Of a DNA stretch of 64,000 nt, positions 1,703-44,800 are shown piece by piece. The position numbers and the translations under genes are program-made. The notes under the pieces were generated by a model. That model searched no databases and was not told where the DNA came from. It saw only the letters and a program-made list of their open reading frames with translations. How positions within the stretch are numbered: position 1 is the first letter of the stretch; every line of letters starts with the position of its first letter. Source of the stretch: Lytechinus variegatus (Eukaryota; Echinodermata; Echinoidea; Temnopleuroida; Toxopneustidae); assembly GCF_018143015.1 (NCBI RefSeq), contig NC_054743.1, positions 37,466,922-37,530,921 on the forward strand, in the 5' to 3' direction.

Positions 1703-1783
1703 AATGCTTTTTGTCAATGTTTTTTATTTGAATTTTAATAATGTGCAATTTTATATATTGAATGTGCAATATTCTCTCAACGG

Positions 1784-1858
1784 TTTTTCCATGAGGGCTC
1801 GCATGCCTCTGGGCAATAGTACTGAATTTTACTTTTGCGAGCCCTGGCCCATGGAAAA
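1784..1858. repeat. Short hairpin element
   Basis: The arm at 1784-1803 (TTTTTCCATGAGGGCTCGCA) is complementary to 1836-1857, with a loop of about 32 nt. It resembles a very small MITE. The ORFs crossing it on both strands are by-products of the palindrome. Confidence 0.5.
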
Positions 1859-1861
1859 AAC

Positions 1862-2870
1862 ATTTTCTTACTCTTTTCTTCTCCTCTTTCATTTCTACTT
1901 TATCCATATTTAATTATTCGATTTCAAATTGTATTTATGTAATTACATTGTACAATTTTTGTATGTTTTTATGGCCAAAATAGATAATAATAATAATATT
2001 CATTAAAAAATATTTGGAAAAGCAATAGGCCCTATGGCTATGCACATTTTTCTTGATTGTATTTGTAATCCTCAACATTTGTCATTTTTAAAGCACTGAA
2101 TTAAAACTAAAGGTGTCCAGCAATAGCATACACTGCCATATAATAGCTACTCACCGGGAAGAGCCACGGTGAGTGGCAAAAAAGGTACCCGCAAAATTAT
2201 TACTTCTGTCGTGTAACTGTAATTTTAAGTTAGATTCTAAATGAAGCAAGATGCAAACAGGAACTTCTATGTAAAGTAGCAAACGTAGAATGCAATACAT
2301 GGGGACAACAATAAAAAAATTGCTTACCAACACCGCCCATCTAACAAAGTCATTCACGAGTCTTCCACCGAAATTCCGCATTCTTAATTATTAGGAGTGC
2401 TACTTTTGCGACAATCTTCCAAATCAAAGAAAACAAAAATACTAAATCATCTCTGGATTCTGGGAAAACAAGACCAAACTTTTATTATACTTAGTTCCAG
2501 TTCGCGACTGTACTTTACAGCTTTCCGGTACCGGTATTATCAGCGACTGGGATGATCCGATCCGGATCTAGTTCTCGATCCGTGACGCGCCTGCCTCCCT
2601 CCCCAAATCGAACCCCAATCTAAACATGCTAATTAAACGTCAGTGTATCATGAAAAAAATATATAGTCAAGGCTTCAATTTGGGTGGGAAAATTACAAAA
2701 TAGGCTTATATATAGGCGGATAAGCAGCCATGTCCCCCTCCCCCCCCCCCAAAAAAAAAAAAAGTTATGTGAAGAAAAATAATAAAATTTAACAAGGAAG
2801 AATTATTCATGATTTTTCTTTTTAAAAATTGGCCCTAAGAGTTGGGGTTTATATTCTTGACAAACCGATC
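1862..2870. other. No gene seen; homopolymer junction inside
   Basis: AT-rich sequence without recognisable coding. At about 2731-2763 a C run passes directly into an A run, a pattern that recurs in this window within the CACTGGCGT-type repeats. Confidence 0.45.
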
Positions 2871-2891
2871 CTATTCACGTATAGGGGTATT

Positions 2892-3050
2892 GGGCGTTGT
2901 GGCGTGCGCCTGTAATCCAAGCTGTGGGGAAGTTACAAATTGATGCACAGGTTCGAGCCCTCCTGGTCACGTCTTTCGGATGGTGACGTTAAAGGTCGGT
3001 CCAGACGTAAATAATGATATCTGATTGATACACGTCTGAAAAAACTCAAA
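2892..3050 (+). mobile_element. SINE with 7SL-like head, copy 1
   Basis: It starts GGGCGTTGTGGCGTGCGCCT followed by GTAATCC, which closely resembles the 5' Alu domain of 7SL RNA. An A-box-like TGGCGTGCGCC and a B-box-like GGTTCGAGCCC give an internal Pol III promoter. The body (TCTTTCGGATGGTGACG, then the ACGTCTGA tail) is shared almost base for base with the copy at 24471. The 7SL relation is inferred from resemblance, not from an alignment run here. Confidence 0.7.
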
Positions 3051-3393
3051 TAGACGCACACTTATTCATGATTGTTACAAAAAGGTAGTGTCTAAAATGC
3101 CAATGTTCAACTGGCTCGCACTTTTTGCGATATGAGGCCCGGGGAGCCACTTTTTTGTAGAGGGCAAGATAACATGATAGTGATATTATTGGATGGTGAT
3201 GTCATATATGTTTTCTTTGTTGATTTATAGGGGTATTATTGTTTTACATGGCCCATACCTCGATGTCTCATATTTTATTAGTCCTTTCTCATTCCTCCTC
3301 CGCCTCCTCGTAAGGACAGTTCAGTGTTAATGAACCAGTCTGGTCTGTATGAATATCAGAAATATACACAAAGATGCTGGAGCTTTCTGCTGG

Positions 3394-4103
3394 GGAGCGT
3401 TTCATAAACATAATATATATGTTTCATAAACATTTTTGTCCGACAAGTTAATCAGATATTTTGATTGGCTATGAACGGCGAATAAAACCGGACTTGTCGG
3501 ACGTCTAAGGTCAAGTCCGGACCAGAAAAATGTTGTTTTTAATAAATAGAGAAAATCAAACTAGCATAACGCTGAAAATTTTTATCGAAATCAGATGTAA
3601 AATAAGAAAGTTATGATATTTCAAAGTTTCGCTTACTTTTCACAAAACAATGATATGCAAACCTCAGTGACATGTAAATGAGACAGACGATGATGCCCCT
3701 CACTCACTATTTCTTTTATTTTTTATTGTTTGAATACAATATTTCTTTTTTTTATACAGATTTGACAATAAGGACCAACTTGACTGAACCATATTTAAAC
3801 AATGCACGTGTACAGGGAAAAATTAATCGTTATTTCACTTGGCATTGAGGAGAAAATTAGAATATTTTTCATATTTTATATAATAAAATACAAAAGCAAT
3901 AGTGAAGGGATGACATCATCAGTCTCCTCATTTGCATATCTGTTTCGTGAAATTAAGCGAAACTTTAAAATGTCATAAATTTCTTATTTTACATCTGATT
4001 TTGATGAAATTTTCAGCAGTAGTTTGATTTTTCTCTATTTATTCAAGTCAGCATTTTCCTGGGGTGGACTTGACCTTTAAGTTCTTTCATGAAACGCTCC
4101 CCT
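3394..4103. mobile_element. Two nested foldback elements
   Basis: Outer ends GGGAGCGTTTCATAAA (3394) and TTTCATGAAACGCTCCCC (4103) are inverted repeats. Nested inside, about 3508-4081, lies a copy of the window's commonest MITE (ends TCAAGTCC and GGTGGACTTGACCTTTAA). Its own halves are inverted copies of the GAAAATTT... CATCTGATTTTGAT block. The nesting implies that the inner copy arrived second. Confidence 0.65.
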
Positions 4104-4677
4104 GAATTTTAACTGAGGTGCTCGCACTCCGTCACGGCATATTTTTGGCGTAATACTTTGAAAAGAATCAATCATAAAAATTAATAGGCGAAATACGTTT
4201 TTCATTACGAGGAAGTTACAAAATTCAAAGTTCATCTGCCTGCTTATTTTACAAGAAAATTACTAAATACTGTATTTCCTCATTTTCTGTACACCATTTT
4301 TAAGTTCGATATTATATGCAGGTACACTTTAGTCAATTCTAAAAACAATGAGAGGTTTAATTAGTATTTGTTCCTAAAACATTGGCTCTTCAAAAATTAT
4401 TCAATATTGTAATGTAATGACAGATTTTATGACCGATGAATTACGAGTATACGATGATCAAAAGCCAATTTCATCTCACACTTAACATGCTTGAAATGAT
4501 TTATGACTCGTTTGGCTCTTTATCAATTTCCTCAAGCGATATGTTTTTTTTATTCTTTTCTATTTTGTTTAACACACTTACCATGTTATCTTGTGGACGT
4601 ATAGAGGCCCTATTTTATATTCTGATGTCACACATGCCACATTCATGTAGGTAAGAAGTACTCCAGGCTAAAACTAA

Positions 4678-5678
4678 TACTATTTTAACAGACAAACGAA
4701 CCACTGACATTTCATCAAAATCGGACAGGGAATTACGAAGTTATCACATTTTAAAACTTTGCACAATAGGGATAAAGTATGCATGTCTTCATTGATATGT
4801 AAAGAGCAAGCTGATGATGTTGTATCCCAACTTATGATTTTTTTTTGGGGGGGGAGTATTTCATTTTATTATATGAAATTATATTTATTCAAATTTTGGT
4901 CATCAAGAAATAATGATTAACAACCGAGTTGATTTGAAAGATATTGATTGATACAAGTTATTTTGTTACAAGGGAGGTATATCATGAACACGTGACTTTT
5001 TTTGTATGAAAATATGAATAAATGGAACATATAAGAATATTTATTACGGCGTGCATATAACCTTTTCTCACGAAATATTACTGATTGCTGGATGGTCCTG
5101 GCTGAAAATATATCTAAATAGATAAAGTAAAATTCACAAAGCAAAATGCTGAAAATTTCATCAAAATCGACTAAGAATTAACGAAGTTATTGAATTTTAA
5201 AGTTTTTAATTGATCAAGTTTGTGAAAACAGTTATATGCACATCGTCACGAATATTCATTAGATGGGCTAATGATGTCATATCCCCACTTTCCTTTTTCT
5301 TAACATGAAATAATAAATGTATCATTTTTTTCATACATGTGTAAATGATGTGTTTCCATTATGATGAAATAAGTTGCGGCAATAAATAACTAATGCAATT
5401 AATCAGTTGTCAATTCAATTGTTGTTCTTGGTAGTATTTTTTTTAATAAACCTAATAAAATACAAAAGAACAAGTGGGGATGTAACATCATCAGCCCATC
5501 TACTGAATATTCATAAGGACATACCTAGAAATGTTTCACCGGTATAATGCAAATCTTTAAAATTCAATAACTTCGTTATTTGTTATCGGATTTTGATCAA
5601 ATTTTCAGCATTTTGCTTTGTGAATTTTACTCTATTTATTGAGATATAAATATCTCCACCCTGGACCATCCCTTTAAG
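4678..5678. mobile_element. Foldback MITE (ACCATCCCTTTAA type) plus a partial relative
   Basis: 5085-5678 is a palindromic element. Its left half has AAAATTCACAAAGCAAAATG and its right half the reverse complement CATTTTGCTTTGTGAATTTT, ending at GGACCATCCCTTTAAG. About 4678-4840 looks like a single diverged half of the same type (TTTCATCAAAATCGGAC). No coding capacity is seen. Confidence 0.6.
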
Positions 5679-5814
5679 AATTTATTTATGTTATCAGATT
5701 TTGATGAACCTTCAACATCTCGCTTGGTGATGTTTTTATTATATTTCTTTTATATATAGATATGAAATCATTTCAGCCCGGAGTAATGAACAGCAGTTGG
5801 AATAAAAATACTAA

Positions 5815-6010
5815 TGATAATAATAATAATAATAATTGGATTTATATAGCGCTTTTTCCAGAGGATACAAAGCGCTGTTAATTGCATAAGACAAGTTAAG
5901 GTTTATGGTTATATAAGTGTGTTTTGAGATGTTTTTTGAAGAGGTTAAGAGAAGAGAGGTTTCGAAGAGATGGAGGGAGTTTGTTCCAAACTGAAAGCAG
6001 TCAAGAGCGT
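5815..6010 (-). mobile_element. Probable LINE 3' tail with (ATA)n
   Basis: An (ATA)n microsatellite abuts GGATTTATATAGCGCTTTTT, the familiar 3' end of CR1/L2-like non-LTR retrotransposons read on the opposite strand. No reverse-transcriptase ORF remains. The family assignment is from memory of the tail motif. Confidence 0.4.
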
Positions 6011-6186
6011 ATAGCTGAGGGGTAGAGGACTAGTGTCCCCCCTTTCCATGTAAATATCGTAAAATAAATAGAGAAAGGGGAAAGAGGGGAACGGAAAGTG
6101 GAAAGCAAAATAGAAAAAGGACTAGAAAAAATGGAAGAAAAGAAGACCGTATGTACGAAAAGGAGTATACGTACAATATAATGGTA

Positions 6187-6437
6187 CCACTGGCGTAATA
6201 AACCAAAAACTTCGAGGGGCAGATGTGGCGTGAAATTTATTAAACGTTGTGAGAGAACGAAGCAGGCAAGAAATTGACAGTCCAGTCATAAGAAAAGTCC
6301 AATTTAGTGATAGCTCTTGACTTAATATTCAGAAAATTATATCATATTTTAACCTTCTCTCTTTCTTCTCTCTTTTTTCTTGGTCGTGATGTTTATGTGG
6401 GGGGCAACCGCCCTAAGCACCCCCTCGTATGCCACTG
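6187..6437. mobile_element. MITE with CACTGGCGT-type ends
   Basis: The left end CACTGGCGTAATAAACC and the right end (reverse complement CAGTGGCATACGAGGGG) form a terminal inverted repeat. The body contains a diverged form of the GTGAGCAAGCGAAGTGAGC phrase that recurs near 27800 and 36940. Confidence 0.5.
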
Positions 6438-6731
6438 GCGTATATACATTCAAAATAAGACAGCTCATAGAATATTGCAAATAAACACAAAATAAAACAT
6501 AATGCATCTTTTCCAGGTTTTACTCATCATAATTTATATTCGAGTTTATATAATTAACAAAGTAATTCCAGGTCGGTGATCTTTCAGTCCTTTCTCATTT
6601 TTGTTTCTTTAAAAAGTAATGAAAACATGATTATAAAAAAGGACCTCTAATATTCTTAAACGTGACAAGTGTTTCTCTGAATCCCAATAAATTTTCTGGT
6701 CTAGGATAACACAAACAAATGTCATCTTGAA

Positions 6732-6881
6732 CAGGGCCGCGGAACGGTTTTCAAAGTGGGGGGAGGGGAGGCTGACCATGCTAAAAATCACAATTATTAT
6801 GGTCATTTTTACATTTTCGTACACGGTTTTGGAAAAAAGTGGGGGGCTGAAGCCCCCCCCCCCCCCCGATCCGCGGCCCCT
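6732..6881. mobile_element. Small G/C-run MITE with CCGCGG ends
   Basis: AGGGCCGCGGA at the left and CCGCGGCCCC at the right are inverted. Between them lie a G-rich tract and a 15-17 nt C run. The ORFs encoding Gly/Pro runs here are artefacts of these tracts. Confidence 0.5.
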
Positions 6882-7324
6882 GTTGAAATATGTTTCCTTC
6901 TTACTAAGATTACACGATACCATTTCTTAAGATAACAACATATCGTATAACAGTCCGAACTTGATCTGTATTACTAAAACTGCACGACATCAATAAAAAT
7001 AAAGTATTGTAACCTATACTATGGGAGTTAATTTGAATTGTTAAATTCCAAAATGCCATGATTTATTGCATGATCTATGAAGACTTTACATCAATTTGTG
7101 CGCGATCAAAATTAATCGAAATGATATATACACTCTTAAAAATGCGTGGTTAAAAAACGACCAAAACGTGGTCGTTTTTGACCACGCACGCGTCGTCAAC
7201 TATGCACACGTCACGCACGTGGTTGAATTGACCACGCAGCAAGTGGTTGCCCAAAATGACCACGAAGCGTGGTTATAACTTTAACCCCAAACGTGGTTCT
7301 GTCCTAACCACGTTGCGTGGTCAC

Positions 7325-7675
7325 ATTTTTGTGACCACGCATGACCACGCACGCGTCGTCAACTATGCACACGTCACGCACGTGGTCAAATTGACCACGC
7401 CTCGAGTGGTTACCGAAAATGACCACGAAGCGTGGTTATACATTTTTGTGACCACGCATGACCACGCACGCGTCGTCAACTATGCACACGTCACGCACGT
7501 GGTCAAATTGACCACGCCTCGAGTGGTAACAGAAAATGACCACGAAGCGTGGTTATACATTTTTGTGACCACGCATGACCACGCACGCGTCGTCAACTAT
7601 GCACACGTCACGCACGTGGTCAAATTGACCACGCCTCGAGTGGTTACCGAAAATGACCACGTAACGTGGTTATCA
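7325..7675 (+). repeat. Three tandem copies of a 117-bp unit
   Basis: Units begin at 7325, 7442 and 7559, exactly 117 bp apart, and are nearly identical. Each holds GACCACGC, CGTGGTC and ACGTCACGCACGTGG. Because 117 is a multiple of 3, a 144-codon ORF runs through, repeating 39 residues. Given the palindromic motif content I take the ORF as incidental. Confidence 0.8.
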
Positions 7676-7830
7676 TTTTAATAACTCCAAACGTGGTTCT
7701 GTCCTAACCACGTTGCGTGGCTATTAGATAACCCTTCGGACGTGGTCATTATTCCTAACCACGAAACGTGGTCGTAACGTGGCCATTCCGCAGCCCTGCT
7801 TTAGCCACGAAAACATGGTTATTTATGACA

Positions 7831-9430
7831 ATGTGGATAACAAATGACATACATGCACACGAAATCAAGTGAAATTCAACAATTTGCATATATTCTTATA
7901 AATAATGGCAAAACAATTAACAAATGGTGTCTTAAGCTTGCATTATTATGGGGCAAGTTGGGATGACATTGAAATAATTGCAATGATTAAGGCAGGAATT
8001 AATGATATCTGTTTTACCCAATCGTGCATCCCCCATATCCTTCACAATTCAAATCACATGTACAAGTATAGAAACAAATTATGTCGATCCAATATTCCCA
8101 TTATGAAATAGAACAAAGCTTCAATGCATAAATCAATTAATATTAATACATTTTCAGCAAATTGATAAACTATATCAAATCGAATGAAACGACTACATAC
8201 AAAAAACAAGAGCCCAGAGTGGCTAGGACCTACCCCGAGATTCTCACAATACATTATAAAAACATTATTCCAACATATATATAGAATATTTGTAAAAACA
8301 TTTTATTAACATTTGATTTATGTATTAACCAAAACAACGTTAAATGGGTAGTTCAACTTTGGTAGAGAAGGCTCTGGACAACTCACATCTTTAGCGAGGC
8401 AACAAAAAACTGAGTTGCAAATTTCAAGGAAAATTCAATTTTAATGACAGAACAAAATTTATTTTGTCAGAACAGTTCATAAATAGCTGAAATATTGATA
8501 AATGTATCCCCAATCGTAATAAATCTGGGCCCTAAGATTTATTAGGCTTTAAAAAAAATAAGAACAAATGCTTTAACTATTTGAACATTTTCTAAGAGGT
8601 TTTAAAAGTTGTTGATTACTATTATTTAATCATAATTGAAGAAAAAATCAAATGTATAATTTTGTATCAAAACAAAGTTTAAAAAATCTTTTTGGATAGC
8701 GCTCTCTTGTATTTTAATGGTTCTTTTAAATGATAACATGCTGGTCACATAATCTTATGTAATTTTCTATACTTTTGCAGCATAATACTAAGTTTGTAAT
8801 GTTATTTTGCAGGTTTTGATTACTAAAACTTGGCCACACAACAGCTGTACTACCCCTTGAAATAAATCAATGTCATATAGATTCCATCTTTACTTCCAAT
8901 TTTATGTTGTACCTTCTATGCGATTGCCTAGCCCTAGCCCTATTGTAATTTCCTAACATACAATATTTTCATTGCAATTCATTTCCAAACATAAATGCGA
9001 AGAATTTATAATTATTTATTTCTTTGACAAAACAATTGAGTACAAAGAAACCTCGCATATGTCGAAGTCCTCGGGACTGAGAAAAATGCATCAACACAGC
9101 CGAAACTCAACTCCTTACTTCGGCAAATCCAATTTTATTTAACATGTATATACATGTGTAAAAATCGGGACTTTTCTTTTGCGAGGTTTTCGACTTTACC
9201 GACTTCGACACATCCGAGGTTTACTGTGTCTAATATAACAGACTTCTATAAATATTAAAAAGTGAACATTACAATATATAATATAACCAGCAATGACCTG
9301 TCAGCTGTAAGAGCTAATTCTCAATCCAGAAATAGAATGTAAACATGTTCAACATAGCATACATTATACACAAATTGTAAACAACAATTGTATCTCATCA
9401 TAGTCATAGCAATTTGAAATACAACTGAGT
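7831..9430. other. AT-rich interior without recognised gene
   Basis: No motif array, no palindrome and no convincing exon. It lies inside the outer TIR-bounded block and may be original cargo or older inserted DNA. Confidence 0.4.
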
Positions 9431-10629
9431 CCTTTTGTGATCCACAACTGAGTCCAACTCACCAGGTCCAAAAATTCACAGCTTAGTCCTAGATCTCTAG
9501 TCCTAATCCTCGACATCACCATCAGTCTAACCAGCATGACCAGGTCCAGGGCTTGGGCGTCACGAAATGGATATCAATCTGTCTCAGCAGCTCAACATAT
9601 TCCAAAACCAGCACAGGAAATGATGAAAACTCCACTCATCTAGGTCTAGACCAGGTCCAAGACAAATGGTCCAGAAATGTAGTCTACAGTTTCCATCAAT
9701 ATAGATCCACAAACAAGTTTAGACTGGTCCAAATAACAATTGCTCGAAAAGAAAACAATAAGAGCACAGCAAAGCGTCCAAATATCAATAATATTGAACC
9801 AGTTTGCACTCACTACACTAGAACATGTTCAGCTCTCGTCTTTAGCTCCAAAGCGATAGATCTCCCCAAGATTCCAGTAAGTTCATCTAACTGCAAAATT
9901 CGTCCAAACGCACGTTATCGATAAAACATGCCATCAGCCAATAATCAGGTCTAACGTTACGCGTCGGCTCCCCCATAAGGACAAGCTAACGAGCGTTCAT
10001 CCTCAGTGCAGTCCGTACAAATAGGCCTAGTACAAGTGCTCACGAATCACGGTCCTCAATCATCCGACGTCGAAACAGCGGAAGATCCGGCAACTCAGTC
10101 CAGACTACAGTCTACACTAGTCCAGGTTTCACTTCAGAAAACCACAGTTCACTCCTACTTCCATCACAAGCCTAAACAAAACTGTGAGAGTTCCCTTCCG
10201 AGTCCGATCGTGTGACCTCAAATCGATCAGCGATCCAATGCCCGTATAGGCCTAGCCTACAGCCTTAACCTTGCTAGCCCGATCCGATCCCACGTCCGGT
10301 CCAGCTTCACAATACACATACCGGTACGCATTCCAGTCCAGCAGACGGTCCATTCCTCCAACGCTTCCGGTAACCCCGTCAAGTTAATGTCCAGTATTTC
10401 ACATTTCTGACATGAGTTCAGTTCTGCTCTCTGCCACCATGTAATATTACGTTGGTGGAACACTGTATATCACTGAGATGGACAAATGAATGATTGAACT
10501 CTCAATTATCAAGTTTATTTAACAACGACTCGGAGCACGTAGTTCTTACATCGTGGTTTCACGTCGCGTAGCTAGCCAAGCAACCCGTAGCATGCAACCA
10601 CTTAGCAACCACGCGCACGTGCATAAACA
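9431..10629 (-). mobile_element. Fossil LTR retroelement, 5' end only
   Basis: On the minus strand a ~190-bp TG...CA-bounded segment (10440-10629) has an AATAAA signal inside and is followed by a primer-binding-site-like TGGTGGCAGAGAG, as in Ty3/gypsy-like elements. Downstream, ~9431-10439 is probably leader and the start of the internal region, rich in AGTCCA phrases. No second LTR was found and no intact gene is recognised. It is an incomplete, old copy. Confidence 0.4.
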
Positions 10630-10632
10630 TAT

Positions 10633-13600
10633 AGTCTAGGAGCCAGGGGGCTTTATTCAGAATTTTTGGTGGGGAAGGTTTGACAAGCTTATCCGGGGTA
10701 AAATTGTGCGCTGATTCCAAAAATGTCACTCTTATTGACCGTACTCACGCCATTTTGGTTATTTTGGCCAAATTTTGACCAAAAATGACCATTTTGACCA
10801 CTCTTTGGAAAATGGTCCTTAACAGACTGCTTTTGTAGCCACATGCAATTAAAAGGGTCTATCTTAAGTAAAAATGCACACAGATTTCAGATAAAGTGCT
10901 TTCATTTGCCAAATCACAATAGCAGTGGTCATTTTGGCCATAATTTGGCCAAAAATGACAATTTTCATGATTTTTTGGCCGAAATGTGTTACAAATATTG
11001 ATCAGAGCTACGACTGGATGTTTTTAGAAATCCACATTTATTTTCAAAATGTGCGCTGGATCATAACCATCAACCTCATGTAATTTATTCCATCAGTTTT
11101 GACCTATGAGGGTCATTTTGGGTACTTTAGACATAACTGACCATTCGCGCAGTTTGCATTATTAACTGTTCAAATAGGCAGGAAATTGAGGTCTTCAGCA
11201 TGTTTTATCTTCTTCCCTTATAAAATGAGAATGCATTTAAATGTCCTTCATGTGTAAAATTTTATGCTGATTCCAAATATATCAGTCATAATAACCCTAT
11301 TTGATAGCTTGTGGTAATTTTGACCACTTATGGCCCTCAAAATGGCCAATGACATCAGTTCATTTTACCCCCAAATACTTCGAATGTTACCAGAACCATA
11401 ACAAGGTGTGCTGCGACACCTAACATTGGTGTGTTAATCCTTTAAATTGAACATCTCACAAAGTATTTTGACTTTATGTAATTTATTACATCAGTTTTGA
11501 CCTATGAGGGTCATTTGGGGTACTTTATACATAACTGACCCTTCACGAAGTTTTGCATAATAAAGTGCACATTTACATGTCGGCAGGAATTTGAGGTCTC
11601 GTAGCGTGTTTTATCTTCTTCCCAATATAAAATGCAAATGCATTCAAAAATCCATCTTGTGTAGAATTTTATGCAGATTCCAAATATATCAGCCTTAATG
11701 ACCCTATTCAATAGCTTATGGTTATTTTGGCCACTTATGGCCCTTAAAATGACCAATGACATCAGATCATTTTACCCCCAAATACTTCGAACGTTACCAG
11801 AACCATTACAAGGTGTGCTGCGACACCTAACATTGGTGTGTTAATCCTTTAAATTGAACATCTCAAAATTATTTTGACCTCATTCCATCAGTTTTGACCT
11901 ATGATGGTCATTTTTGGTACTTTAGACATAACTGACCATTCGCACATAGGCAGGAATTTGAGGTCTTCAGTGTGTTTTATCTTCTTCCCTTATAAAATGG
12001 GAATACATTTAAATGTCCATCTTGTATAGAATATTATGCTGATTCTAAATATATCAGTCTTAATGACCCTATTGAACACCTAATGGTCATTTTGGCCACT
12101 TATGGCCATACAAATGACCAATAACATCAGTTCAATTTATCCAAAATACCTCAATGTTACCAGAATCGTTTCCAGGATGTGCTGTGACATCTAACATTGG
12201 TGTTTTAATCCTTTAAAATGAACATTTCAAAAGTATTTTGACCTCATGTAATTTATATCATTAGTTTTGACTTTTGACTATTTTGGGTAACTGACCATTC
12301 GTGCAATTTTGCATAATAACTGCAAATCGGCAGGAATTTGAGGTCTTCAGTGTGCTTTATCTTCCTCCTTTATAAAATGGGAATGATGCATATGTCGTTC
12401 TTGTGTAGAATTTCATGCTGATTCCCAATATGTCAGTCTTAATGACCCCATTTAACAGATTATGGTCATTTTGGCCACTTTTTGGCCCCCAAATGACCAA
12501 TACCATCTGTTCAATACTTCAATATATCCAAAAATACTTTGAATGTTACTATAATCGTTACAAGGGTGTGCTGTGACACCTAATATTGGTGTATTAATCA
12601 TTTAAATTGAGTGTCCCAAAAATATTTTTGACAACCTTGGTCATTTTGGCCAGATTGTCCCCTGCCCAATGTGTATACTAAATTAGCCTATAGTGAACAT
12701 AGTGAGGAGACAATTCAGGATTGTGTTAATATTAGCATCAATTATTGTTAAATTGGAAAAGTTTGAAAGCTTTTGGGTGAAAATCAATGCAATGATTCCA
12801 TATAAATCAGTGTTATTGGCCGATCGAACTATTGGACTTTGTGGTAATTTTGATCACCATTCCTCAATAATTTCTCGTGACCACACATTATTTGATTTAA
12901 AAAGGGCTCAAATGTTGCTTAATATTATTTCAGCTTGAGCTACTATAACAATAATCAAGATTTTAATGAATGTGATGAAAACCTTTTACATGAAGTACAC
13001 ATACATGTAAGGTTGTTTGACCATGCACCTTGGTCATTTTCATGATTTTAGGCACATTAACCATTTTGTAATTCATGGAAACAAATGATATTAGATAGGA
13101 CATATTACAAAAACTTTCTGCACCAGATTAATACAATGATTTAGAATATATCAGTCTTAATGACTACTTAGTGGTCATTTTGTTCCTTACAATTAGCAAT
13201 GACAATTACATGTATCAAAAGTATTCCAATATTCTTGCTCTATATTTTTGTAAGATTTGTTGTATCAATCATAATCAGTGACAAATTATTTAATTCAATA
13301 TGATATTACTAATATTCAAAATGTGACCATTTTGGCTAATTTGACCGTTTATCCAATGTGTGAATTTTGAAATAAACATGACTTAGCAGCAATTGTAGGT
13401 CTATGAACATGATGAAATGCGTTCAATCCCTTTTCATGGGAAATATTAAAGGTTCACCTTGAGTAAAAATTGTGCTAAATATCATGTGAATGTCTTCTTT
13501 GGCCCCTTTGATCGCTGTATGTTCCTAAATAGCCAGAATTATTTTCCTTCTTTAAAGTCAAATTGTACTGAGAATCATTACAAAGCAAAATAGGTCACAG

Positions 13601-16600
13601 TGAAGTTCACAAAGAGTTTTGACTATCATTCATTTTTACAATCTTTGTTTTTTCTTGTACAGTGATTCACAAAGCTCACATTGGCATGATTGGTGAGCAG
13701 CAAATTTACCCTTCATTCTTTTGAAGACGTACTGGGTAATAAAATACATTCTCTATATGAAATTATTCTCTGTGCCGAATTTTGGTCACTCTTTAACAAT
13801 TTAGGGCAAGTTTTCCACTTTCAACTTTACCAATCATGCCAATGTGAGGTTTGTGAAACATTATACAAAATGGCAAAGGTAATAAAAATGCATCATGGTT
13901 AAATCTATTCGTGAAATCCACTTTCACCAATAGCTTTGTAATGACGCACCTTTGAGTTCAGGATTAGTTCCTTCCTCTAGAATATAGTTATCTGTATAAT
14001 TTAAATAAAAAAGGAGGGAATGATGTTATGGCTACTCAATTACCATACAATGACCAAATGGTGAGGTATTTGGCACAATTTTTTTTACTCAAGGTGAGCT
14101 TTTAATATTTCCAATCGAAAGGGATTGAACGCATTTCCACCATTGCTCCTGTCATGTTTAGTTACAAAAGTCATACATGCGATAGATAGTCAAAATGACC
14201 AAATTGGTTTCAAAATTTTGATAATGTGCTATTAGTCATATCATATTAAAATCAATAATTGATATAATACATCTTATTAACAATGCGGAGCGATAACAAC
14301 ATTTGAATCCTCCAAAAGCGACCAAAATGACCACTAGCTCATTAATGGTCATTAAGACTAATATATTTGGATTTCATTAATCTACATTAATCTAGATAAG
14401 TGTCTTAAAATAACATGTAAATGATGCTAAAATGTCTCATTCCTGAATTTGCTGCCCCATATATGTGAGGTTTCCATAAACATTTACTGTGTGTGTGGTC
14501 AAGGTGGCTAAAATCATGTAAATGACCACAGTGCCATGGTCAAACAACCTTATGTATGCGCGATGTCAGCACTCTTCACCGATTAATGGTAGCTCATGCT
14601 GATAATGATACTGACCAGCATTTGAGCCATTTTTGACTCATCAAAGCATGCAAGGTCTCTCTCTTAGCTGATCTCTCCACTAATTGGAGATTCCTAGGGT
14701 CCATGGTCACTGGTCAATATTGAGGGAAACGTGGTCAAAATGACCACAGGGTCCAATAGTTATGGTCTATGTGTGGAATAATTTCATCAATTTCCACCAA
14801 GAAGCTTTCAAACTTCCCCATTTATCAATAATTGATGCTAATATTAACGCAATCCAAAATTTCTCCTCACCATGTTCGATATCACCTGAATTAACATCCA
14901 CAATGAGCAGGGCTGGCCGGGGGGTCAAGGTGGCCAAAATGACCAAGGTAGTCAACTTTGGGGATGCTCAATTTTAAGGATTCATTCACCAGTGTTGGGT
15001 ATTACAATTGTACAGCACACCCTTGTTAAGATTCTGGTAACATTCGAAGTATTTCTGGATAAATTGAACTGATGTTATTGGCCATTTTAAGGGCCATAAG
15101 TGGCCAAAATAACCTAAAGCTGTTAAATAGGGTCATTAAGACTGATATATTTGGAATCAGCATCACATTTTACATAAGATGAACTTTTGAATGCATTTCC
15201 ATGTTATATGGGAAGAAGATAAAACACGCTGAAGACCTCAAATTCCTGTCTATGTGCAGTTTATTATATGCAAAACTGCGTGAATGGTCAGTTGTGGCTA
15301 AAGTACGCCAAGTAACCCTCATAGGTCAAAACTGATGGAATAAATTGCATGAGGTCAAAATACTTTTGAGATGTTCAATTTCAAGGATTAATACACCAAT
15401 GTTATGTGTCACAGTATGCCTTTGTAACGATTCTGGTAACATTCAAAGTATTTTTGGATAAATTGAACTGATGTCATTGGTCATTTTAAGGGTCATAAGT
15501 GGCCAAAATGACCTTAAACTGTTAAATAGGGTCATTTAGACTGATACATTTGGAATCAGCATAAAATTCTACACAAGGATATTTAAATGTATTTCCATGT
15601 TATATGGGAAGAAGATAAAACACGCTGAAGACCTCAAATTCCTGTCTATGTGCAGTGTATTATATGCAAAACTGCGTGAACGGTAAGTTGTGGCTAAAGT
15701 ACGCCAAGTGACCCTCATAGGTCAAAACTGATGGAATAAATTGCATGAGGTCAAAATACTTTTGAGATGTTCAATTTCAAGGATTAATACACCAATGTTA
15801 TGTGTCACAGTATGCCTTTGTAACGATTCTGGTAACATTCAAAGTATTTTTGGATAAATTGAACTGATGTCATTGGTCATTTTAAGGGTTATAAGTGGCC
15901 AAAATGACCTTAAACTTTTAAATAGGGTCATTTAGACCGATACATTTGGAATCAGCATAAAATTCTACACAAGGACATTTAAATGCATTTCCATGTTATA
16001 TGGGAAGAAGATAAAACACGCTGAAGACCTCAAATTCCTGTCTATGTGCAGTTTATTATATGCAAAACTGCGTGAATGGTCAGTTGTGGCTAAAGTACGC
16101 CAAGTGACCCTCATAGGTCAAAACTGATGGAATAAATTGCATGAGGTCAAAATACTTTTGAGATGTTCGATTTCAAGGATTAATACACCAATGTTATGTG
16201 TCACAATATGCCTTTGTAACGATTCTGGTAACATTCAAAGTATTTTTGGATAAATTGAACTGATGTCATTGGTCATTTTAAGGGTCATAAGTGGCCAAAA
16301 TGACCTTAAACTGTTAAATAGGGTCATTTAGACTGATACATTTGGAATCAGCATAAAATTCTACACAAGGACATTTAAATGCATTCTCATTTTATAAGGG
16401 AAGAAGATAAAACATGTTGAAGACCTCAATTTCCTGCCTATTTGAACAGTTAATAATTCAAACTGCGCGAATGGTCAGTTATGTCTAAAGTACCCAAAAT
16501 GACCCTCATAGGTCAAAACTGACAGAATAAATTACATGAGGTTGATGGTTATGATCCAGCGCACATTTTGAAAATAAATGTGGATTTCTAAAAACATCCA

Positions 16601-16983
16601 GTCGTAGCTCTGATCAATATTTGTAACACATTTCGGCCAAAAAATCATGAAAATTGTCATTTTTGGCCAAATTATGGCCAAAATGACCACTGCTATTGTG
16701 ATTTGGCAAATGAAAGCACTTTATCTGAAATCTGTGTGCATTTTTACTTAAGATAGACCCTTTTAATTGCATGTGGCTACAAAAGCAGTCTGTTAAAGGA
16801 CCATTTTCCAAAGAGTGGTCAAAATGGTCATTTTTGGTCAAAATTTGGCCAAAATGACCAAAATGGCGTGAGTACGGTCAATAAGAGTGACATTTTTGGA
16901 ATCAGCGCACAATTTTACCCCGGATAAGCTTGTCAAACCTTCCCCACCAAAAATTCTGAATAAAGCCCCCTGGCTCCTAGACT
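10633..16983. mobile_element. Giant 6.35-kb foldback element
   Basis: AGTCTAGGAGCCAGGGGGCT at the left is matched inverted at the right end (…CCCCCTGGCTCCTAGACT). The two ~3.1-kb arms stay complementary almost to the centre: for example CACATTGGCATGATTGG near 13677 faces its complement near 13829, leaving a loop of about 130 nt. Each arm carries about four tandem units of ~400 bp. The unit landmark TTTTGACCTATGAGGGTCAT occurs near 11097 and 11495 in the left arm; its inverted form occurs near 15320, 15716 and 16122 in the right. All are dense in GGTCATTTTGGCCA-type words. No transposase ORF is seen. Confidence 0.8.
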
Positions 16984-17180
16984 AATATATGATATTATCA
17001 TAACATGAACCACGCTACGTGGTCTTTTTGTCTAACCCCACTGTGCGGGGTCACCAAATTAAAATGACCATTTACAAGCATGGCTAAAATTTGACCTCGA
17101 CTGGGTTAGACAAATAACCACAATATATGGTCATTTTGGCTAACGGTGAGGGGTTATGTTATATAATGTTATATCGAGCT

Positions 17181-18636: not shown

Positions 18637-20262
18637 TTATTCAATTATTACGCAAATATTTACAGTGCAAGTTTGGTTAGATTTCTTGGTACGAAAGGCT
18701 TGCTTGAAAGCATTCCGATAATTTTCGCTGAATGACGTGTATATGATGGGATTGATGGCAGCGTTGATATAACTCAGGGATCTGAACGTCTTCGGAATGT
18801 TGTACCCTGATAATGAAGCAATCGTCTCCAATACGGAGATGGTTTCGAAAGGAGCTAACGAACAGAAGAACACACCGTTTATTACCAACATCCTCGAGAC
18901 CTGATCTCGCAATTTCTTTCGAGTTCCACCATGTACTCCGCAACCTAAAGGGGGTATCTCACTGGGCTTGAAACTAGTTCGCGACTAGTTCGCGACTACA
19001 AATTTTGCTAGTTGCAGAGACGTCTCCGCGACATCTTTGAGACGTCTCATGAAAATTACAGAGTCTCCGAGGAGTCGCAAGAAGATTAAACATGTTTAAT
19101 ATTTTTGGAGACTGTTTCTTGTCTCCGCGACGTCTCCGAGAAGTCTCCATCAGTTGCTGCGACGTCTCGGAGACTAAAGATATCCGCGACTGCTGAGACG
19201 TCGCCGCGATGTCTCCGCGATGTCTCAGAGACGTCTCAGAGACATCGCGAAGACCCGCTGGAGACCCAAAAAATTATAATACATTGCGGAGACGTCTCCG
19301 CGACACTTCTTCACACTGTTTGACCCACTTCAGAAACCACGTGACTGAACGCGTGCTGATATCCCTCCTCCTGCTCCAAGTCAGGTGTATGATCTTTCAA
19401 ACGTTCCATCGAGACGTCTCCTTGGTGAGAGCGCAAGCCATTTTCGTCTCCGAGACGTCTCCGCGACTGCAGCGACTGATAAGTTGGAGACTGTCGCGGC
19501 GACGTCTCCGTTGGTGAGATAGGGGCTTAAATGATCTGTTCAAACCACGAACGATCTTTATGTATAAGACAACGTTGACCATATAACAAAAAAGAATGGA
19601 ACCGTTTGGGCGCCTTTCTGGAATGTTGAAATCAACGCATGTTCCGGACGACAAAGCCCGAATGTGTCCGGGTATTCAAGAAAATTGGGGTTTCCAGGGG
19701 GCCACGTAATACATATTTTATAGAAATAAACGCTCGATGGAGATGATAAAGCAGCCACTCCCAGTGATATAATCCATGAAGCACAACAGGCAACAACTGT
19801 CATTGCTGTTTTGTAACATTTTTCTATTGCTTTCATTTTCAGAGGGTGACAAACTGCGAAGAAACGGTTTACAGTTACCAGTGTGATAAAGAATAAAGAC
19901 GAAAAGTATGCAACATTTGAGGAAAAGAGTACAAAGATACAGCCATCAGAGCCAATGTGCGAATCATCTTGAATTGGCGAGCTAGCGAAACGCCATATCT
20001 TTTCTCCGATTGTAACTAACAGGAAGATTAGGTCAGAAACTGCCAAATTCAATAGGAACCAATTTGTGGAGATCCGTATCCTATGTATTTTAAGGACTAT
20101 GTAGATGAAGGCTAAGTTGCCAAGTACTCCGACCACCAAAATTAGAGGAAGGAACACTGCAAAATAAAAGTAGTCTCCCGGCACATGATATGTCAAGAAA
20201 TTTCGAGGAGGGGGATGGCCTGTACAAACATCCCCCCACTTTTCACAGAAGAAATGAAAAAA
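18637..20262 (-). pseudogene. Class A (rhodopsin-like) GPCR, peptide-receptor type, disrupted
   Basis: The minus strand encodes, in order: TM1 with GVLGN, TM2 with LAVSD, TM3 ending in VNRFFAVCHP (an NRF in place of D/ERY), TM4 with its Trp, TM5 starting VPFFF, then TM6 and TM7 with NPIIY and a short tail ending at the stop at 18637. The open frame extends upstream of TM1 with two Cys to about 20262, next to a pyrimidine tract and AG, so an upstream exon is possible. Two problems break it. A 578-bp element (18950-19527) sits in the third intracellular loop. The end of TM5 (NVVLYIKIVRGL) lies in another frame from both TM1-5 and TM6-7, so a one-base shift near 19582 and a compensating one near the insertion are needed. 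Known of the family: plasma-membrane receptor acting through G proteins. The ligand cannot be read. It could also be one of the echinoid lineage-expanded GPCRs. Confidence 0.85.
18950..19527. mobile_element. 578-bp element with GACGTCTC motif array, inside the GPCR gene
   Basis: It is flanked by TAAA on both sides (18946-18949 and 19528-19531). The ends GGGGGTATCTCAC and (reverse complement) AGCCCCTATCTCACC form an imperfect TIR. The inside repeats GACGTCTC, often as GAGACGTCTCCGCGAC, at least eight times. Removing it with one TAAA restores the GPCR's TM6 frame to that of TM1-4. No coding capacity. Confidence 0.8.
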
Positions 20263-20577
20263 AAATCACAAGAGATAATTGTTTTGTTGGTGAAAATTCT
20301 TCCTAAAATACCGCTTAACAAATAAAACAATATCATTGGATCATAAAATGCAAATAAAGAGCCAGTTCACCATTTGCAAACGAAATACTTCTGTCCTTAT
20401 TATAAAACTGAAGAGAAACCCCCGTTTCTTCAAATTCATCAATGTTGGGGGGGGGGGTTGGGGGGGAGGATTAAGATGGAATGTCAAAACATTTTGAATG
20501 TTATCTCTAATAAAACCATTAAACCATCATGGGGTAAAAAGATAACAATATCGAGGGGTATTAGCCATATGGACATA

Positions 20578-26800: not shown

Positions 26801-29800
26801 CATCTTGTTTTCTATTGTTCTTCGCCGCGTTACAGACGGCTAGCTCTCATTAAGGTAAACCTAGTGAACGGGTACCTAGTTGAGAACTAGCCATCGACGA
26901 TCATCCACAATACACAAACCTCAACATTCGATCGAACAAGATTGAAATTCAGCAAAATAGGCCCATATTTCTGTCAGAAAATATATACATTGTTAATGCA
27001 AATCTATGTTGTATGATACTTTAAAGGACAAGTCCACTCCAACAAAAAGTTGATTTGAATATAAAGAGAAAAATCCAACAATCATAACACTGAAAATTTC
27101 ATCAAAATCGGATGTAAAATAAGAAAGTTATGACATTTTAAAGTTTCGCTTGATATTTCACAAACAGTAACATGTATATGCACATCCTGGTCTGTATGCA
27201 AAGGAGGAGACTGATGACGTCATCCACTCACTATTTCTTTTGTATTTTATTAATTGAAGTATGAAATATTTTAATTTTCTCCTCATTGCAAAATGAATCA
27301 ACAACTAATTCCTCCTTGAACATGTGGAATTAGTATTGTTTATAAACACTATATTTAAAGTCAAGTTGGACTTCGTCCTTCTTGTCAAATTTGTAAAAAA
27401 TGAAATACAGTGCGTAGTAAAAAAAAAAGGGACAGATTTGAAAGTCTAAAATTTTTGTTTCAAATTATGATGTCTATATTTTGGTGCTAAAAGGTGCTCT
27501 AAGGTCTTATCTTTGAAATGTAATTTAAAAAATGAATTTTGTTCATGCTTGAGCGAACACGGGACGTTTTTGTTGGGGGTTAAAAAAGATTATTCAAATC
27601 CTTTAATATATGAAACAAATTATGTTATGTACCTTTAAAAGACGTGTATCTTTTTTTCAAGGGGCCATTGATTCTTTGACCACTTTAAATTGCTTGACAG
27701 GAAACACAAGAAGGGATTCATGTCTTTCAATGACAATGGTGTATTGAGTCAATTTTGAAGGAGCTAGATATGGCAGATCGGATAAAATGTATTGAAAAAG
27801 TTGTGAGCAAGCGAAGTGAGCACCCAAATATTTATTATAATATCAAATCTTGTGATAGATTTTGACCTAATATTCAGAAAATCATATCATGTTTTACTTT
27901 CTATCTTTCCTTTTATTTCCTGTCCACTTTTTTTCTTGGTCATGTTTTTTTTTAAATGAGGGGGGGGGGGGGGCATCCCGAGCTCCCACCCATCTGTGTG
28001 GCACTGTTCAAAAGGGACCATAACCTTTGTAGCACACATTGAAAGGATTTGAAAAAAAAATCCATGCTCTCCCATACTTTGGTTGAAAATTGTTTTAGCT
28101 TGAAGAAGGAATATTCAAAGCTAACAGAGAGCATATTAAAAAGAAACAACAACAGAACAATTTAACTAAATAAATAGATCTGAAAATAATTTTGACCGCA
28201 TGATTTGAAAATTATGGCAAAGATAATGAAAAGGATAAGAGGAAGTCTGCTAATTAGCAAGAAGTCCGATCATCATATTTTTTTATTTTATGCCATTTTG
28301 GCGCAAGCCTCATTTTTAACCCTAGACAAAAACATTCCATGTTCGCTCAAGCATGAACGAAGTGAAATTTTTTTTTAAAGCATTTGAAAGATAAGACCTT
28401 AGAGCACCTATTAACACCAAAATATAGACATCATAATTTGAAACAAAAATTTTATAGACTTTTCAAATCTGTCCCTTTTTTATATGCACTTTATTGTATA
28501 ATTCAAACAATTAAAAACAAAGGAAAAAATGAGTGAGGGACATCATCGATTATCTAATTTGCATGTCTCTCAGTTGTGCATACATGTATCACTGTTTTTC
28601 GAAAAATAATTGAAACTTTAAAATCTCATAACTTTCTTATTTTGCATCCGATTTTGATGAAATTTTCAGTGTTGTGCTAGTTTGATTTTTCTTATTCAAA
28701 TCAACATTTTCTGGGGTGGACATGACCTTAATAATGGAGACAAACCATTCACACATGAAAATTGAAATGATTATGATTTCATTAAAAAAGGAAAGTGGGG
28801 ATGTGACAATAAATCAAACTACATGTACCTACATACATGTACATGTATGAATGTTTATGACAACATGCCAATATTGCTAAATCTTAAAATTTAATAACTT
28901 TGGTATTTGTGATGAGACTTTGATGAAATTTTCAGCACTTTGCTTTGTGAATTTTACTCTTTTGTATACATTTTCAGCCTGGAGCAACCCTTTAATACAA
29001 TTTTCAGGTCATAACAGCCCCTGAAATGTCCCATTGATACATAACACATGCAAGTTCATGGACTTGCCCACAAGTGGATTTTCATAACAATTCTTATGAA
29101 CATTTCATTTAATCCACATTAATCAATTTATATTTGAATATGATGGGCTGTTTTGGCCTTTAAAATTTGTGCACATGCACACATGGGGAAGACAGTCTGG
29201 GCAATGTTTACTTTTCAAACAGATTACTTTCAAATTTCTATTAACGTCACTCTTTCTTTAGATATTTGATGTTGTGTAATCTTATGCAGGTCCCATAGCC
29301 AAAAAGTAAATATTGGATCATTTGCCTCCAATATATTTTGATGCTGGAATATACATTGGAGGATTTGGAGGGTTGACTTGACATTTAGAAATAGGAAGAG
29401 AATGGATGCAAACACTCGAACTGTAAAACGAATGGTTATGGCTGAGATACATCAGACAGAAGGGGAGGGGGAGGGGAGCTAGAGAGACAACATGGTTGAA
29501 ATATACATTACATGTAAATGTAATTAGGTCAAAAGGAAGGAAGTGAAAATGGGGACATGTAGATCTATGAGGATAAAACAACCTTATTTTTTCAACAAGA
29601 ATTATTCTTATTTCCTACTCCTGGAGTCACTGGGAATTACATGTATTTGAGACAGTTTTAAAAGTGAGGCTGTAATGATGTTCTTTATTCTATTGTCATC
29701 TCTTGTGTCCTGTAATTACAAAGGTTTCAGTCATTACTTGATTTTCATGATTGCTTGTACATAGTAGTCAATGCAATCAATCGTAGAAAAATGTTTTACG

Positions 29801-41800: not shown

Positions 41801-44800
41801 CACAGGAACTTCTGGTATTGAGGAATACATGTACATGTAAATTGGAAGACTTTTTTTTAAATCATCATCTGTACAGTGTACATATATGTATATGAAAGGA
41901 AGGAAATGCATTTTAGAGAACATTCCCATGTATAGCACTTTTCATGTTTCATGTGAACCTCTCCAGCACTTAACAATCTCTTTAGGGAAATCAATGGAGC
42001 TCTGTGCTTTATGATGTGAGGCATGTGATTCGATGATAGACCCATCCATCGAGGGCAACATGCAGTATGTCCCTCGACATCAACATGAAGGAAGTTCTTG
42101 CCTCGGAATGTGAAGTTGAATGGGATTTTCTCAAGTTAATCCCTGAAAAGGGATTTCAGTCTCTCAATCTCAAAATGTCAAAGTCATGTTGGAATTTAGA
42201 TGATGCATTATTTCTGCTTACACCTCTACAGTGTAATGTACATGGGACTTGGTTGGAAAAAAAATTCCCCTTGTTTATAATTGCCGATTGAGCATGTTTG
42301 TTCAAAATATTTTCTAACTATGATTTATATTCATGCATTCATCGTTTTCTTAATAATTCACTGTGCTTCTCTTTGTTTACCAAGGACATTGTGCAAATTT
42401 CCTGTAGAAAATATTATGACACTGATGGATTTCCATAGAGTTATGATTGATTGGATCAATCGTAACTCTTTGTAATCTTGACGGGGCCCTGGTATTTATC
42501 TTTAAAAAGCATACAGTATGCTGTGTATGCCATTTGAGGCAAAGGGAATACTATTGAAGATTAGACCAACTTTTCAATCTCCATCCGCCACCTAATTATC
42601 TTTACATTGTTCTGAACCGTACACTACAAGCCTAACTCTAAACCTATGTCCTCTGAGATATATTAAAACCAGAGCAAATGTCGTGCCACCATGTGAACAG
42701 GGGTCTGTTTTATGACCGGTTTCTGAGACCGAGAGGCTATCCTAATAACAGCTATCTCTGGATAGGTGTCAGAAAAGATGCGATTGATATGCAGAGGAAA
42801 TCACAGGCGGTGTCGGGTATCCATTCTGCTGCTCCCTTAATGCCCTTAGTATCAAATACCGTACTTTGTGGTAATGGATCAGGCGGGATAGTAATTACTT
42901 ATCTAAAAGGCCAATCTTAAATTGTTGATGGGACAGTGCTTGTGTAGTATGCATGGATTTTAAATGATTAAAATAGGAGTATGTATGCCTGTGAATGTGA
43001 TGCCTAGAGCTGATGAAAAGAGGAGCCGGTAGTCTATGAGTTAAACATATCGAGTGATGGACAGTGCACATCTATTGGGGATTGTGATTTACATGTACCT
43101 ATAGGTGTGTAGAGTGAGTCCATACATGCAATTTGAGTCAATTGCTATTAAAGGACAAGTCCACCCCAACAAAACCTTGATTTGAATAAAAAGAGAAAAA
43201 TTCAACAAGCATAACACTGAAAATTTCATCAAAATCGGATGTAAAATAAGAAAGTTATGATATTTCAAAATTTCGCTTCATTTCACAAAAACAGTTATAT
43301 GAACGAGCCAGCTTCATCCAAATGAGAGAGTCGATGATGTCATTCACTCACTATTTCTTTTGTTTTTTATTGTTTGAAATATGAAATATTTTGATTTTCT
43401 CGGCATTGTCATGTGAAATGAAGTTTCATTCCTCCCTGAACACGTGGAATTCCATTATTTTAACATTTTGTGCTTCAGGCAAGGAGGTCCTAATCGTCAA
43501 ATTCGTAAAAATTGAAATATTGTATAATTCAAACAATAAAAAACAAAAGAAATAGTGAGTGAGTGACATCATCAACTCTCTCATTTGGATGTAACTGGCT
43601 CGTTCATGTAACTATTTTGTTAAAAATAAGCGAAACTTTGAAATGTCATAACTTTCTTATTTTACATCCGATTTTGATGAAATCTTCAGCATTGTGCTTG
43701 TCTGATTTTTCTCTATTGATTCAAATCAACATTTTTCTGAGGTGGACTTGACCTTTAATAAATAATATTTTCTGAGAACTTTAAACAAAATATTTAAAAG
43801 AACTACTCTGTGAAAGCAAATCATTTATATGTACAATACATAAAATGTAGGCCTGCAGTATGACGTCTGGCGTGCATATGAATATGATGAGCATTATAAT
43901 ACTCCTTAATGCAAATATACACTTGTAAATGCCTGGATATCCATTTTTTGACAGGTTGCCAGTTTAATTTCCTAGATGGTAATTTTCGATGTGTCAGTCA
44001 TTGTGCTTCATGACGTACAGTGTTATATTTCTACCCTTCATTTGTGTATTTCATGCACTTGATATCATATGACACTCTCCTCATGGAAAGAATTCTCCTG
44101 ATGGAGGAAAAGCGAAAAAGGAGTCCTTTGTCACGTACTGTGCATTTGTAACATTACACAAAAGTTCATAAATTGATACATTTATGCCCAGATCTATTCT
44201 TTTCTTTCTTCATGTTTTGACTTTAGTATGTACAGTAACTGTAACATTCGTAATCATGCATTTGTTATAATAGAAATAGTCATCGGTTTCGTTCATTGTT
44301 TCAAAGTGGCTTGAACAGAGCACCTAGATTTGCAGCAGAATGAAAATATGATTCAAAGAGTCTGAGATATAATGGCAATTATGTGGTTATAGAGCTACAT
44401 GTACATTTACACACTGTAGCAACATGAATGACACTGACAAAACTAAAGAGATGATCTTAATTCTAAATTTCATTTTGTTATTAATATTATTATTATTTAT
44501 TTATTATTGGGAGTGGTGGATAAGGCTTAGGAAAGGAGCCCCCTGATATATCTTGTTTTCCAAGATAGTGGAAGGAATGAGAAGAAAAGAGTATTAAACA
44601 GAAAATATAATTTGATCTTCATACTAGATATTTAGCTGTACAAATATTTTCATCACTTGTCTGATTGCATGGATATTAAGACATTAAATGCATTATAGTT
44701 TCATGTAAAGGCATGGTCACACCGCCCGAGCGTTGTTGGAGCGGTCGTGGAGCGGAGAGAAAAAATCATCACCGCTCGCTACTGTTCACCATTTCGATTT

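Follow-up and report, generated by a model that had tools for sequence, protein, structure and literature searches.

Among described transposons, those of the foldback type offer the closest counterparts to the subject of this analysis, a palindrome of more than 6 kb in the genome of the sea urchin Lytechinus variegatus; the 64,000-nucleotide stretch that contains it (contig NC_054743.1, positions 37,466,922 to 37,530,921) is called the window here, while the palindrome and its relatives are called the urchin family. According to the sections of its description drawn on, Tetris of Drosophila virilis has long inverted repeats, a flanking domain, a variable number of tandem repeats of ~220 bp, an inner domain and a middle that looks non-coding, together with 8-10 bp duplications, a suggested Mutator affinity and three structurally complete copies, no autonomous copy having been found (PMC4079207). 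Galileo, of the P superfamily, is portrayed in the excerpts used as having 7-bp duplications, a known transposase and long inverted repeats with internal tandem repeats, the repeats reaching ~1.26 kb and being longest in non-autonomous copies; some copies have non-matching flanks, and in subfamily F the repeat number differs between the two ends (PMC3573991, PMC3688188). For Tc4, a fold-back element of C. elegans, a CTNAG target is given in the passages used (PMC11071193). The urchin palindrome is almost certainly a copy of a non-autonomous foldback-type DNA transposon, in which two long arms in inverted orientation flank a short loop that has no coding capacity.

Judged by the portions of the published accounts just cited, the foldback plan of the urchin family is closest to Tetris and Galileo subfamily F among the described systems compared. 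All the structural features listed for Tetris recur in it, as does the failure to find an autonomous copy, and with Galileo it shares the long inverted repeats, the internal tandem repeats, some copies with non-matching flanks and (with subfamily F) the unequal repeat number at the two ends. It differs from Tetris in having tandem repeats of ~400 bp, 3-bp duplications and 75 duplication-flanked copies out of 83 paired ones, and from Galileo in its shorter duplication, its longer arms (~3.1 kb each) and the fact that the variation falls on the same arm type from one copy to the next. Tc4 resembles it as a fold-back element with a 3-bp duplication (TNA in Tc4), but TNA suits just 10 of the 75 urchin duplications, and the urchin arms are much longer and contain arrays. 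The TU elements of Strongylocentrotus purpuratus, reportedly described in a 1983 study as unusual transposons with long inverted repeats, are said to have 8-bp duplications and 15-bp tandem repeats, as against 3 bp and ~400 bp here, and are set apart by this description rather than by sequence. The urchin family joins a 3-bp, motif-free duplication to a foldback architecture, in contrast to the duplications of 7-10 bp made by Galileo and Tetris, a distinction that is drawn from published descriptions and not from comparison with Repbase or Dfam. In the open-licence literature, searches for sea-urchin foldbacks yielded nothing beyond the description of Tetris and a survey of the gall-midge mobilome, and those for sea-urchin transposons no foldback paper by title among the matches listed.

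The fixed ends, the 3-bp duplications, the uninterrupted targets, the copy number and the variation of unit number in one arm are all directly supported by observation. The original prediction for this locus, made from the window alone, was right about the inverted tandem arrays and about a right array that changes in length, but the transposon nature escaped it. The near-complete palindrome that it placed at 10633..16983 is real and extends one base further at each end (10632-16984, 6353 bp), being imperfect, near end-to-end and provided with tandem arrays in both arms. On either side stands a copy of the target-site duplication ATA (left 10629..10631, right 16985..16987, found by comparing the flanks). 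In the terminal inverted repeat, the left tip domain (10632..11072, + strand) starts TAGTCTAGGAGCCAGGGGGC and is 98-99% complementary to the right tip domain (16543..16984, - strand), the end of which is GGCTCCTAGACTA. Next on the left comes an array termed stable (11073..12628, +), comprising units S1 (11073-11404), S2 (11404-11811), S3 (11811-12170) and S4 (12182-12563) and a remnant (12571-12628); it is followed by the left inner domain (12629..13695, +), which in the arm-to-arm alignment shows 75-90% complementarity over most of its length to the inner domain on the right (13829..15022, -), and the right array, termed variable, has four units (15023..16542, -; 15023-15421, 15422-15817, 15818-16213 and 16214-16542). 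Tandem Repeats Finder gave array units of 396 and 407 bp, in keeping with the ~400 bp predicted. The innermost clear helix, picked out by eye, pairs roughly 13668-13695 with 13829-13856 and leaves a central loop of ~133 nt (13696..13828), where ~130 nt had been expected; an RNA fold agrees on the centre. The inverted arms, internal tandem repeats and small loop by which foldback-type DNA transposons are recognised structurally are therefore all present.

The match between the arms is closest at the tips, with 99% identity over the first 189 nt and 98% over an overlapping next segment of 445 nt. Followed by depth, arm-to-arm identity is 99-100% in the outer 500 nt and 75-91% per 250 nt deeper in. 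A global alignment of the two arms gave 2654 identical columns out of 3017 aligned, with 719 gap columns and a score of 3456, against a score of 3 when one arm was shuffled. In the minimum-energy RNA fold of the whole strand, 2545 of 2677 pairs join arm to arm, at an energy of -3646 kcal/mol (-1421 for one shuffle).

The search for other copies with the same 20-bp end, which had been proposed as a check, gave 257 places at up to two mismatches (126 on the + strand and 131 on the -) in the 870 Mb, 33-contig genome, while a backwards-read control gave none. The same genome has four matches to the Bindin family, against none in 14 control genomes; as Bindin is a sperm protein of sea urchins, this marks the host as a sea urchin. 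Exact 16-bp ends with six flanking bases numbered 50 + 91 + 57 = 198, and formed 83 +/- pairs less than 20 kb apart, with 32 ends left unpaired. Of these pairs 16 were read whole, six partly and 60 at the centre; in the remaining one, at C14 5.35 Mb, both 6-bp flanks are those of a sampled copy. The 18 copies read whole are the 16 just mentioned plus two with a mutated end, a further long copy also has a mutated end, and L028, known from a single end, was excluded from the copy counts. Paired copies have a median length of 6011 bp (range 1756-16520, n=83), the largest cluster lying at 5.5-5.7 kb and the second at 5.9-6.1 kb, about one 400-bp unit apart. Searched against the genome, the terminal 269 bp gave 40 scored matches out of 564 candidates, all 98-100% identical, and over the outer 430 bp the 36 tips of the 18 whole-read copies diverge from the majority by an average of 0.77%; on such sequence evidence the family is young. 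The persistence of the palindrome, which had been singled out as notable, is unremarkable for a young multi-copy family. Two family copies stand only 40 bp apart (C6:22822207-22827798 and 22827839-22833509) and have separate 3-bp duplications (TAA and ATA), and one copy without a matching duplication (L025, C10:26261257-26267193) lies inside a tandem array of CCCACAAATGTAATAA-type units. Copies with both 6-bp flanks in common occur at C1 8.11/8.21 Mb and C14 3.93/5.35 Mb, and are perhaps segmental duplications.

An exact 3-bp target-site duplication flanks 75 of the 83 paired ends, whereas swapping right flanks among copies gave a mean of 5.3 and a maximum of 15 over 1000 shuffles. Longer matches are rare (4 bp in two of the 83 pairs, 5 or 6 bp in no pair), and among the 18 whole-read copies 15 match at 3 bp, one at 4 bp and none at 5-11 bp. 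The duplicated triplets are A/T-rich with no fixed motif, ATA or TAT accounting for 20 of the 75, TWA for seven and TNA for ten. Discrete ends with target-site duplications, as required of the foldback class, are thus found at many sites. Empty sites were sought with the joined flanks of 7 of the 18 whole-read copies; 40 matches were scored out of 3070 candidates, and all 40 cross the junction, one place belonging to L009 and 39 to L020. In the six empty sites that were fetched (one L009 paralogue and five copies of the repeat targeted by L020) the junction is uninterrupted and the triplet single; relative to the filled flank, the L020 sites lack two bases whose place is two bases past the junction, and in the paralogue of L009 there is a gap of 3 bases at a distance of 12 bases. 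Since the targets are uninterrupted with one triplet and the flanks of the copies are duplicated, the element runs from TAGTC to GACTA, bounded by 3-bp duplications.

The two arms are unequal. With arms classed by how closely, on average, their units resemble a single variable-arm unit of the window copy, every one of the 18 whole-read copies has one arm with diverged units and another with more uniform units of a different kind. The stable array has four units in 16 of the 18 copies and three in the other two (L011 and L024), while the variable array has one unit in one copy, two in nine, three in four, four in three and six in one. The comparison of unit classes leaves out L014's single unit and the stable arrays of L011 and L024, which have three units each; L011, L014 and L019 carry inserts inside their arrays. 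Stable units at the same position are 98% alike in different copies, as against 80-88% for different positions (16 copies), and when 119 units are arranged in a tree, the minimal clades that take in every stable unit of positions 2, 3 and 4 have 16, 18 and 18 leaves, 16 of them members in each case, with a support of 1.0. Variable units other than the outermost are ~94-97% alike whatever the copy (~94.5% overall), and the outermost resembles the rest at just 85-89%; the innermost units of the variable arm, 17 in number, group in one clade (support 0.98). It had been claimed that right-arm units are closer to each other than to the left ones, and this holds: the two middle right-arm units of the window copy are 97.5% alike, while units of opposite arms are 84% alike over the 18 copies (90% for the two outermost units).

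The further suggestion of ongoing tandem turnover is borne out as regards change in length, with one to six units in the right-type array and four in 16 of 18 copies in the left-type one, but is weakly shown as regards turnover that is still going on. Middle variable units taken from one copy are 97.0% alike (n=9), those taken from different copies 96.4% (n=82), so that a general homogenisation of the variable array copy by copy is unsupported, and most of the uniformity of variable units must predate the copies because likeness within a copy barely exceeds that between copies. In L009 three of the four middle units are 99.5-100% alike and show recent duplication. Over the outer 430 bp no column has a majority base that differs between the arms (18 copies): arm against arm, the tips agree and the inner parts have diverged. 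The matched tips would serve the transposase, and divergence of the inner arms would leave the palindrome less exact.

As far as selected open frames go, none of the 18 whole-read copies, the 60 centres and the seven long-copy interiors yielded a recognisable transposase, and for this reason the family looks non-autonomous; probably its transposase comes from elsewhere or has been lost. The window copy has no open frame of at least 110 codons. Frames of that size in the 18 whole-read copies lie in or mostly in unshared inserts, except for a 142-codon frame in L022, much of whose sequence recurs in L011, L012/13 and L019 and which has no Pfam match. The 12.2-kb copy L012+L013 (C1:3217714-3229894) harbours not a transposase but a nested LINE, with a 601-codon frame giving PHD-finger-like matches below the Pfam cut-offs and a 1211-codon endonuclease/reverse-transcriptase frame. 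Seven other long copies, their interiors seen in part, contain minisatellites and unrelated inserts; in L033 and L034/L039 the minisatellites read as open repetitive frames. Besides the LINE frames, 11 selected frames were compared with Pfam (shorter ones being left out), and none matched a transposase model: of a first five, one gave a weak match (E 0.1) and four none, and of six more, four gave none and two fell below cut-off, the best (E 0.0013) in a minisatellite frame. Of the 60 centres (401 bases each), 56 have the shared interior, matching it over 380 bases or more, and four are mostly other sequence.

Several points weigh against so firm an interpretation of the palindrome as a non-autonomous foldback transposon. 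An exact duplication is absent from eight of the 83 pairs, and 32 of the 198 exact ends have no partner. No transposase-bearing copy was found among the selected open frames, degenerate remnants of a transposase not having been searched for, and the 60 copies seen only over 401 central bases may include a coding one. A partner family, sought through a 13-bp end (TAGTCTAGGAGCC) followed by a different base, gave four places, including one that is a family copy's end altered by mutation; because the backwards control also gave four, there is no sign of a second family with a TAGTCTAGGAGCC end. In the left arm the motif GGTCATTTTGGCCA is found 16 times when up to three mismatches are allowed, compared with 0.5 in Markov-resampled controls and 0-3 per stretch of equal size elsewhere in the window. 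It might be a transposase binding site, a possibility suggested by its repetition, but its two places in the unit consensus lie at the 30th and 83rd percentiles of conservation, and since it is no more conserved than its surroundings this role is unsupported.

On the foldback interpretation, the mechanism with most support is cut-and-paste movement in trans: a transposase encoded elsewhere, or by copies lost or not sampled, would bind the matched tips, perhaps assisted by the motif that recurs along the arms, and its cuts would be staggered by 3 bp. Units would be gained or lost in one arm by unequal exchange or slippage, and divergence between the inner arms would keep the palindrome imperfect.

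As to the enzyme, at 8, 9 or 10 bp, as for a Mutator-type duplication, none of the 18 whole-read copies matches (15 do at 3 bp), and none matches at the 7 bp of Galileo and the P superfamily. Tc4-like fold-backs duplicate TNA, which fits ten of 75 cases. CACTA/EnSpm ends begin CAC, while those of the family read TAGTC...GACTA. The 3-bp duplication agrees in length with Zator (3 bp) and AcademX (3-4 bp), as these are characterised in the part of the survey consulted (PMC10045372). The model PF07592 (ISAzo13-like, Zator-type) found no match here, nor in any of 14 control genomes. It is possible, though doubtful, that the foldback is moved by a 3-bp-duplicating transposase new to foldbacks (of AcademX, Zator or an undescribed superfamily), one array being free to vary and the other frozen; if so, the asymmetry of the arms would be a built-in means of keeping a multi-kilobase palindrome both stable and mobile.

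An alternative that concerns the enzyme alone is that the same type of element is moved by a PIF/Harbinger transposase, from a widespread superfamily with 3-bp duplications and a TWA motif. The duplication length fits, and DDE_Tnp_4 genes are present in the genome (150 places scored of 458 candidates), but TWA suits just seven of the 75 duplications, which makes this source unlikely; moreover, none of the 150 places is inside a paired copy, and only one is within 20 kb of any of the 198 family ends. That one (C8:35631139-35631624) lies 1.5 kb outside an unpaired end at C8:35629593, probably by coincidence.

Much less probable is a host inverted-repeat locus maintained for the production of siRNA or piRNA; the original prediction had named these RNAs as a product should the palindrome be transcribed, which is energetically possible. 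A full-length transcript would indeed form a near-continuous arm-to-arm duplex, its longest uninterrupted helices being 270 and 189 bp, but many dispersed copies with target-site duplications suit a transposon, and transposons can feed small-RNA pathways too. That a satellite or segmental duplication was spread by recombination with no transposition is barely credible: the arrays of ~400-bp units and the two cases of shared 6-bp flanks would be in keeping with it, but it is contradicted for most paired copies by fixed ends, differing flanks, 3-bp duplications in 75 of 83 and uninterrupted targets. Long palindromes are a classical assembly artefact, and one of this length might come from hairpin read-through or a falsely joined inverted copy, but the inner arms differ by 10-20%, so that neither can be a mirror copy of the other, and, while the window copy itself is known as assembly sequence only, both arm types occur in 18 of 18 whole-read copies and the structure recurs at numerous independent sites that have separate duplications, so that an artefact can effectively be dismissed.

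As a foldback transposon, then, the family provides a large young set, with 75 duplication-flanked paired copies in one chromosome-scale assembly, and shows that foldback architecture is not bound to 7-10 bp duplications. What makes it interesting is that the duplication is short and has no motif, that the transposase is missing and that array variation is one-sided, and it could be used to study the stability of long palindromes, array change unit by unit and the transposase behind short-duplication foldbacks.

Elsewhere in the window there is a second element with long inverted repeats (43146-46914), with arms matching over 428 nt at 96% and 191 nt at 93% and with ends TATTAAAGGACAAGTCC...; pieces related to it lie at 3580-3791, 27012-27184 and 28575-28704. 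An open frame at 19558-20265 (- strand), ~2.6 kb from the palindrome, matches 7tm_1 rhodopsin-family receptors (E 3.9e-18), and another at 47235-47600 (+ strand) matches the sialomucin family MGC-24 (E 9.6e-13). A tandem repeat at 7323-7679 comprises 3.1 copies of a 117-bp unit with 97% matches, and one frame is open throughout the array.

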